This document shows positions 10,724-15,388 of a stretch of DNA of 64,000 nucleotides, piece by piece. The position numbers and the translations under genes are program-made. The notes beneath the pieces are model-generated. The model was not told where the DNA came from, searched no databases, and saw nothing but the letters and a program-made list of their open reading frames with translations. The DNA is taken from assembly GCF_004348545.1 (NCBI RefSeq), contig NZ_SMKL01000016.1, positions 1 through 64,000 of the forward strand, read 5' to 3'. Position 1 is the stretch's first letter; every line of letters starts with the position of its first letter. The stretch comes from Jiangella ureilytica. GTDB taxonomy: Bacteria; Actinomycetota; Actinomycetes; Jiangellales; Jiangellaceae.

Positions 10724-10792
10724 GGACCGATGAGTCCGGCGCCGGCCGGTCGTTGTACCGGTGACGACGACGTGGAGGGAAGGACCTCGGAC

Positions 10793-12157
10793 ATGGCCGA
10801 CACCGATCTCACCCGGCTCACCCTGACCCGGCTGACCCAGCTGCTGGCGGCGGGGGAGGCGAGCCCGGCTGAGGTGCTCGAAGCGCACCTGACCCGCATC
10901 GACACGCTGAATCCGGGTCTGACGGCGGTGGTGTCGCTCGACGCCGGCGCCGCTCGCGCGCGGGCTGCGGCGCCGGCCTGGCCGGGGCCGCTGCACGGCG
11001 TGCCGCTGACGCTGAAGGACGCCATCGACGTCGCCGGGCTGCGCACCACCATCGGCACCGTCGAGCTCGACCACGTCGCCCGCACCGACAGCGCCGTCGC
11101 GGCCCGGCTCCGCGCGGGCGGCGCGAACCTCGTCGGGCACACCAACGTGGCCGCCTGGCTGGCCGACCACCAGAGCGCCAACCCGGTGTTCGGCCGCACG
11201 GCCAACCCGTGGGACCAGGAGCTGACGGCGGGCGGGTCCAGTGGCGGTGCCGCGGCGGCCGTCGCCGCTGGGCTGACGCCGGGGGAGATCGGCTCGGACC
11301 TGGTCGGGTCGTTGCGCCAGCCGGCGGCGTTCTGTGGGGTGTACGCGCTGAAACCGACGGAGCACCGGGTGCCGCTGACCGGCTTCTTCTCCGTGCCGGG
11401 CGGAGGGCCGCGGCCGGTGCGGATCATGGGGTGTCTCGGGCCCATCGCCCGCGGCCTCGACGACCTGGAGCTACTGTTGTCGCTGGTCGCAGGCCCGGAC
11501 GGCGATGATGGTGATGTCGCGCCGGTACCGTGGTCGCCCCGGCCCGCCGTGGCGCCGTCGTCGCTGCGCCTGGCCGTCGCGCCGACGATCCCGGGGGCGC
11601 CGGTGGCCTCCGTGCTGAGCGACCGGGTGCGGCAGGTCGCCGACGCCGTCGCCGATGCGGGGGGCCAGGTCGAGGAGGCGCTGCCGGAGGTCGCGTGGGA
11701 TGAGCAACTGGCCCTCTTCGGCGAGCTGGTGCTGACGCTGACCTCGGTGTTCGCGCCCGGCGACGGCCCGGCGCCGACGCTTGCCTGGTACCTCGACGCG
11801 CTGTCCCGCCGCGACCGGCTGATCGCCGCCTGGGAGCGGTTCTTCGCCCGCTACGACGCACTGCTCATGCCGCCGGCGGCGACATTGGCGTATCCGCACT
11901 GCGCGCCGGGGACACCGCTGTCCGTCGACGGCGTCGAGGTGCCGTACCACGAGCAGGGGTTCGTCTTCGCGCCGACGAGCCTCACCGGCCTTCCAGGACT
12001 GGTGCTGCCGGCCGGATCGGCCGCCGACGGGCTGCCGGTCGGGGTCCAGCTGGTCGGGCCGCGATGGTCCGAGTCGACGCTGCTGGCGATCGGCCGCGGA
12101 CTCGAAGCGGCCGGCGTCCTGCCCGGATTCCGGTGGCCTCCGGTTGGCGTGGAGTGA
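10793..12157 (+). CDS. Amidase, amidase-signature family
   Basis: 454 residues. The signature fold is clear: LHGVPLTLKDAIDVAG supplies the catalytic lysine, TAGGSSGGAAAAVAAG the cis-serine, and GSDLVGSLRQPAAFCGVYALKPT the nucleophile serine. In this last motif the usual GGS is VGS, a glycine-to-valine change next to the nucleophile that could alter activity. GLPGLVLPAG and GLPVGVQLVGPRWSE close the domain. It should hydrolyse an amide to acid and ammonia in the cytosol; the substrate is unknown. GGAGGG and AAGGA precede the ATG. It follows the HxlR gene by 69 bp and may share its promoter. Confidence 0.88.
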   Translation: MADTDLTRLTLTRLTQLLAAGEASPAEVLEAHLTRIDTLNPGLTAVVSLDAGAARARAAAPAWPGPLHGVPLTLKDAIDVAGLRTTIGTVELDHVARTDSAVAARLRAGGANLVGHTNVAAWLADHQSANPVFGRTANPWDQELTAGGSSGGAAAAVAAGLTPGEIGSDLVGSLRQPAAFCGVYALKPTEHRVPLTGFFSVPGGGPRPVRIMGCLGPIARGLDDLELLLSLVAGPDGDDGDVAPVPWSPRPAVAPSSLRLAVAPTIPGAPVASVLSDRVRQVADAVADAGGQVEEALPEVAWDEQLALFGELVLTLTSVFAPGDGPAPTLAWYLDALSRRDRLIAAWERFFARYDALLMPPAATLAYPHCAPGTPLSVDGVEVPYHEQGFVFAPTSLTGLPGLVLPAGSAADGLPVGVQLVGPRWSESTLLAIGRGLEAAGVLPGFRWPPVGVE

Positions 12158-12338
12158 ACCGGTAGTCTCCCGCAATGCAGTGGCTCCGCTGGGCACGATC
12201 CGCGTCGGATCGCCCCGCGGGCGCAGCTGATCGTGTGCCTCGGCGGCTGGCGATGCCGTAGTCGTCCTGGCATCGCGCCATGACGGCGACCGAGGAGGGG
12301 AGGGCGGCGAGCCGCCGTTCCGGGTGGCGATCTCACCT

Positions 12339-12366
12339 AGTTGACATAATGTGCATTATCGGCGTT
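12339..12366 (-). other. dif: Putative dif site (XerC/XerD chromosome dimer resolution)
   Basis: Read on the plus strand the site is AGTTGACATAA (XerD-type arm), TGTGCA (6-bp centre), TTATCGGCGTT (XerC-type arm), the exact 11-6-11 geometry of dif. Its reverse complement keeps the conserved core ATAATG, then 4 bp later ATTATGT, of E. coli dif, and about 19 of 28 positions agree with the E. coli site as I remember it. The site is in a gene-free stretch of 388 bp. The TTGACA at 12341 therefore need not be a promoter. Confidence 0.82.
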
Positions 12367-12489
12367 ACGGGGATGTGCGATGTCAGCGTCACCGGTCGAA
12401 CCCGATCGTCCCGCCACTGCGTGGCACCCTGCACGACACCTGCGTCCATCTCGTCAGCCTAGGCACGTCCGCACCGGTTTCAGACGACA

Positions 12490-12529
12490 CGTGGGCACCT
12501 CCGCGCGCCAAGGCAAGGAGGTGCCCACG
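12490..12529 (-). terminator. Strong hairpin terminator after the VOC gene
   Basis: A perfect 13-bp stem: CGTGGGCACCTCC (12490-12502) with GGAGGTGCCCACG (12517-12529), loop 14 nt. It lies 17 bp beyond the minus-strand VOC stop and so can end that transcript; it may also shield the dif region. The remaining intergenic DNA (12158-12338, 12367-12489) shows no convincing gene. Confidence 0.7.
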
Positions 12530-12545
12530 AACCGGCTAGTCGATA

Positions 12546-12932
12546 TCAGGCGTTGGTGACGACCTTCCAGAGGTGGCCGTCGGGGTCGCTGAAGGTGCCG
12601 CCGTAGCCGCCCCACTGAGCGCCCTCGGCAGGCTTGATGACGGTGGCACCCGCGGCGACCGCCGCCTGGATGACGGTGTCGACCTCCTCGCGGCTGCCGG
12701 CGATGAAGTGCAGCGAGAAGCCGCGGAAGCCGGAGCCGTCGGCGGGAACGCCGATGTCGTCGGCCACCGCGCCCCATTCGTACAGGGCGAGGTCCGGCCC
12801 GTCGCCCAGCGAGCAGCGGACGAAGCCCGGGTAGTCCTGGGTGGGTTCGGCACCGAGGCCGTCGACGTAGAACTCCTTGGCGCGCTCGATGTCCTTGACC
12901 CCGAGCATGACGACGCTCACCTGCAGCGACAT
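12546..12932 (-). CDS. VOC-superfamily protein (glyoxalase/bleomycin-resistance fold)
   Basis: 128 residues with paired beta-alpha-beta-beta-beta modules: VSVVMLGVKDIERAKEFYVDGLG and GFSLHFIAGSREEVDTVIQAAVAAGATVIKPA, ending GGTFSDPDGHLWKVV. The VOC fold covers glyoxalases, dioxygenases and drug-binding resistance proteins; the sequence does not say which. AAGGAG lies 7 nt before the ATG. It is a single-gene unit ended by the strong hairpin at 12490-12529. Confidence 0.82.
   Translation of the reverse strand: MSLQVSVVMLGVKDIERAKEFYVDGLGAEPTQDYPGFVRCSLGDGPDLALYEWGAVADDIGVPADGSGFRGFSLHFIAGSREEVDTVIQAAVAAGATVIKPAEGAQWGGYGGTFSDPDGHLWKVVTNA

Positions 12933-13021: not shown

Positions 13022-15388
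<2,367 letters not shown>

Follow-up and report, generated by a model that had tools for sequence, protein, structure and literature searches.

A predicted chromosomal dif site in the draft genome of Jiangella ureilytica

Is the 28-bp sequence between two convergent genes of this actinobacterium its chromosomal dif, and does it mark the terminus of replication? The window analyzed here is the first 64 kb of a 100,928-base contig (C74) in a draft genome of 168 contigs and 6.35 Mb. The initial annotation had described an 11-6-11 site in a gene-free stretch, and the 28-mer (AGTTGACATAATGTGCATTATCGGCGTT on the plus strand) is present at exactly the coordinates then given (12339–12366). It lies in a 388-bp intergenic gap (12158–12545), 12.3 kb from the contig end, with the amidase gene ending at 12157 on the plus strand and the glyoxalase-superfamily gene ending at 12546 on the minus strand (Table 1). 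We put the probability that the 28-mer serves this actinobacterium as its chromosomal dif, acted on by XerCD, at about 0.97. The observed basis of this reading consists of the sequence, the single copy, the class-wide conservation, the synteny, a location opposite dnaA in the majority of closed congeners, and genes that encode XerC, XerD and FtsK. As judged from sequence, the site is predicted to be an ordinary, well-understood dif marking the replication terminus, with the place of the terminus taken from synteny.

Table 1. Predicted dif site, its parts and the neighboring features (coordinates of the window)
Feature	Coordinates	Strand	Remarks
dif site, predicted, 28 bp	12339..12366	-	Minus-strand XerC arm, centre, XerD arm: AACGCCGATAA TGCACA TTATGTCAACT
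XerD-binding arm, predicted	12339..12349	-	TTATGTCAACT on minus strand; 9/11 identical to E. coli XerD arm
Central region, 6 bp	12350..12355	.	TGTGCA on plus strand; exchange region, layout matches known dif sites
XerC-binding arm, predicted	12356..12366	-	AACGCCGATAA on minus strand; 10/11 identical to F. alni arm
Amidase gene, left neighbor	10730..12157	+	Towards dif; Pfam Amidase PF01425, E 1.7e-81
Glyoxalase-superfamily gene, right neighbor	12546..12932	-	Towards dif; Pfam PF00903, E 8e-15
UvrA-like ABC ATPase gene, conserved dif neighborhood	13022..15388	-	Pfam ABC_tran
13-bp-stem hairpin, 3' of glyoxalase gene, outside dif	12490..12529	-	Probably that gene's terminator

The 28-mer has one match in the window at up to three mismatches (shuffled sequences, 0/100), and one match at the same threshold in the whole 6.35 Mb draft genome (reversed-pattern control, 0), in keeping with the earlier claim of one copy per chromosome. 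Its identity as dif, proposed at the same time, is upheld by comparison with the published actinobacterial site of Frankia alni (CACGCCGATAA TGCACA TTATGTCAAGT), the prediction of Hendrickson and Lawrence that is the actinobacterial seed in PMC3025954: the minus-strand site is identical to it at 26 of 28 bases. That this reference is itself only predicted counts against the dif reading. The 28-mer folds on itself no more strongly than shuffled sequences do.

The same identity is upheld by conservation across the class. Of 60 genomes, 52, the present one counted, contain exactly one copy of the site's 20-base core, and control matches were zero in all 60. Some three-mismatch core matches, including that in G030 and that in G032, seem to have arisen by chance and not to be dif; G032 contains a better dif candidate with a different centre. 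The exact 28-mer was found once each in the sampled stretches of Microbacterium hominis, Nocardia sp. and Demequina sediminicola. Within the genus, positions 3 to 26 are invariant in all 12 genomes and the flanks vary. A T precedes the 28-mer in 12/12 genomes, and A, C and G follow it in 10/12, 9/12 and 12/12, respectively; beyond this frequent T before and ACG after, the flanks differ, and a conserved site longer than the 28-mer was rejected. In column counts for 34 sites, both arms are near invariant in their inner halves and variable at their outer ends, and position 15 of the 28, in the central region, is the least conserved inner position.

Genes neighboring the dif region are common to this genome and all 11 congeners. 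The amidase ortholog adjoins dif in G002 and G007, the glyoxalase-superfamily gene does so in nine congeners, and the UvrA-like ABC ATPase (87–94% identical) is beside dif in nine. A UvrA-like ABC ATPase with 71% identity is also found beside dif in Demequina sediminicola (L042), a long-lived neighborhood.

Sites with a similar sequence were also observed on phage-like and plasmid DNA. When IMG/VR was scanned for the dif core, two contigs emerged (L179, 4704–4731; L180, 104–131) in which the actinobacterial core is accompanied by Zot-like ATPase genes; both encode Rep-like proteins (Pfam Rep_1 and REP_ORF2-G2P), and 971 identical bases around the site are common to them. These two contigs are predicted to be filamentous-phage-like because of their Zot-like and Rep-like proteins. 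Two further contigs, L209 and L213, combine the core with Zot matches, that of L209 being under the cut-off. The presence of the dif core and Zot-like proteins in four contigs suggests filamentous actinobacterial phages that use host XerC and XerD, and such phages may integrate through these host proteins. CTXphi integrates in Vibrio via host XerC and XerD. A limited literature search, which is weak evidence, found no description of Xer-using filamentous phages in actinobacteria. Dif-like 28-mers are also carried by Arthrobacter plasmids of ~100 kb (NC_008538.1, 81672–81699 (L181); NZ_CP084551.1; NC_010494.1), and the one on NC_008538.1 adjoins two recombinase/integrase genes and is perhaps a plasmid dimer-resolution site.

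The Arthrobacter plasmids, together with the 28-mers beside inovirus-like genes in the four viral contigs, favor the view that the present site came into the chromosome as a plasmid cer-like site or as the attachment site of a mobile element, and is not the chromosome's own dif. We regard such an origin as very improbable: it is contradicted by the single copy and by synteny in 11/11 congeners, plain metabolic genes flank the site on both sides, and a search of this genome and 59 relatives for Zot-like genes gave no match. That the site doubles as an attachment site for filamentous actinobacterial phages with the same dif core, via host XerC and XerD, is a separate proposal, and an unlikely one. 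A palindrome-like, AT-rich patch arisen by chance has nothing but the short length of the site in its favor and is refuted by the conservation described above, which leaves it a negligible probability. It is also opposed by the score in a weight matrix for which 16 sites of other families and that of F. alni were used, with the site's own family left out: the dif site scores 49.8 bits, whereas the runner-up among non-overlapping sites in 84 kb of the contig reaches 1.4 bits and the congener DNA sampled away from dif (2.0 Mb) gives 9.1 bits at most. Of the outcomes that the initial annotation had named as contrary to its reading, neither a second copy nor a better dif match turned up in this genome.

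With the chromosomal dif as the preferred reading, the location of the site at the terminus was addressed by synteny with the dif regions of congeners, and the position of dif was measured in congeners alone because the present genome is divided among 168 contigs. In the four closed congeners, the distance of dif from dnaA as a fraction of the circle is 0.509 (G003), 0.460 (G009), 0.506 (G011) and 0.283 (G001). Dif is thus opposite dnaA in three of the four, in support of the terminus location initially proposed; its position in G001, at 0.28 of the circle and not opposite dnaA, counts against the dif reading. With rounded genome lengths, dif is at 0.48–0.54 of the circle from dnaA in another six genomes of the class, of which five are single-contig. 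The orientation of dif relative to dnaA is not fixed, with agreement in 7/10 genomes.

GC skew was sampled in 20-kb pieces from the four closed congeners, with the terminus position of the present genome inferred from synteny. The expected coincidence of dif with the skew switch is seen in G001 (dif at 0.283, between the last positive sample at 0.235 and the first negative one at 0.286) and G009 (switch at 0.454, dif at 0.460), and only approximately in G011, where the fit is weaker (0.430 vs 0.506); it fails in G003, where the sampled skew is mostly positive to 0.83 and switches at ~0.84, with dif at 0.51, opposite dnaA, which counts against the dif reading. The displaced switch in G003 could stem from a large inversion or from an error of assembly. 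In G001, with both dif and the skew switch ~0.28 from dnaA, the replication arms are strongly unequal. When the skew of all four genomes is pooled, the two arms defined by dif differ with p = 5e-5, a value that is indicative only, because samples from the same chromosome are not independent of one another. Skewed words sought as FtsK-orienting octamers in the G003 sample gave an inconsistent profile in G001, and none is claimed.

The streptomycete telomere protein Tpg (NF047541) gave no match in this genome or in G001, G003 and G011, and one match, under the cut-off, in G009. The presence of dif and absence of Tpg are consistent with a predicted circular chromosome. The 9.2 Mb single-contig genome G039 has a strong Tpg match and is without the dif core; the contrast between dif and Tpg is suggestive only, because G059 and G037 have neither. 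Two genera of one family, represented by G057 and G037, differ in that the dif core is found in G057 and not in G037, with Tpg in neither. For SAP1, no gene is annotated as Tpg in the stretches examined.

The 13-bp inverted repeat near the site is confirmed (12490–12502 / 12517–12529), and the hairpin has a folding z of -4.2 and is without a T run. In G002, G005 and G010 the same stem motif lies 3' of the glyoxalase gene, at 151–304 bases from the start of dif; in other congeners the hairpin near dif is of another kind or is absent. The hairpin is probably the terminator of the glyoxalase gene. Protection of dif by the hairpin, as the initial annotation had suggested, was rejected: the stem stays with the glyoxalase gene at a varying distance from dif, and several congeners have no such stem close to dif.

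The proteins that would act on the site are encoded in the genome. XerC (318 bits) and XerD (326 bits) each prefer their own NCBIfam model; both fall slightly under the equivalog cut-offs, which counts against the dif reading. Both proteins align full-length to E. coli XerD and keep the catalytic H-x-x-R, H and Y positions. The XerC-like gene adjoins a dprA-like gene, and the XerD-like gene lies between ald-like and parA-like genes, these neighbors being named by eye from their translations. The genome also encodes one FtsK that contains a gamma domain (E 2.4e-24); in E. coli, this domain reads orienting sequences and activates XerD. We infer from established Xer biology that XerC and XerD would bind the site, that FtsK would provide activation and that recombination would take place there. 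An odd number of crossovers would join the sister circular chromosomes as a dimer, and FtsK at the division septum would bring the two copies of dif together. XerC and XerD would each bind one 11-bp arm and swap strands across the 6-bp centre, and this exchange would restore two monomers.

The predicted dif would pin the replication terminus of the draft genome to a single contig and favors a circular chromosome, a help both in scaffolding and in marker-free engineering with Xer cassettes. Dif sites are already known for hundreds of genomes (PMC3025954), and nothing new is learned here about dif itself.

Among known systems, the closest is the predicted dif of F. alni, in which the entire centre is included in the likeness and the arm order is equal; the difference is confined to two outer-arm bases. 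E. coli dif/XerCD shares the 11-6-11 layout, most of the XerD arm and a single copy, here at the predicted terminus, but the whole site is identical at only 19 of 28 bases. The layout initially described was retained, whereas the arm order was revised: on the plus strand the XerD arm is predicted to come first (12339–12349), with the XerC arm on the right-hand side, because, of the minus-strand arms, the right one agrees with the E. coli XerD arm at 9/11 and the left one with the XerC arm at only 6/11. The opposite arm orientation fits E. coli dif less well. Mycobacterial dif, used for Xer-mediated cassette excision (PMC4789726), resembles the present site in being an actinobacterial dif, and in laboratory work the endogenous XerC and XerD of the host cut it.
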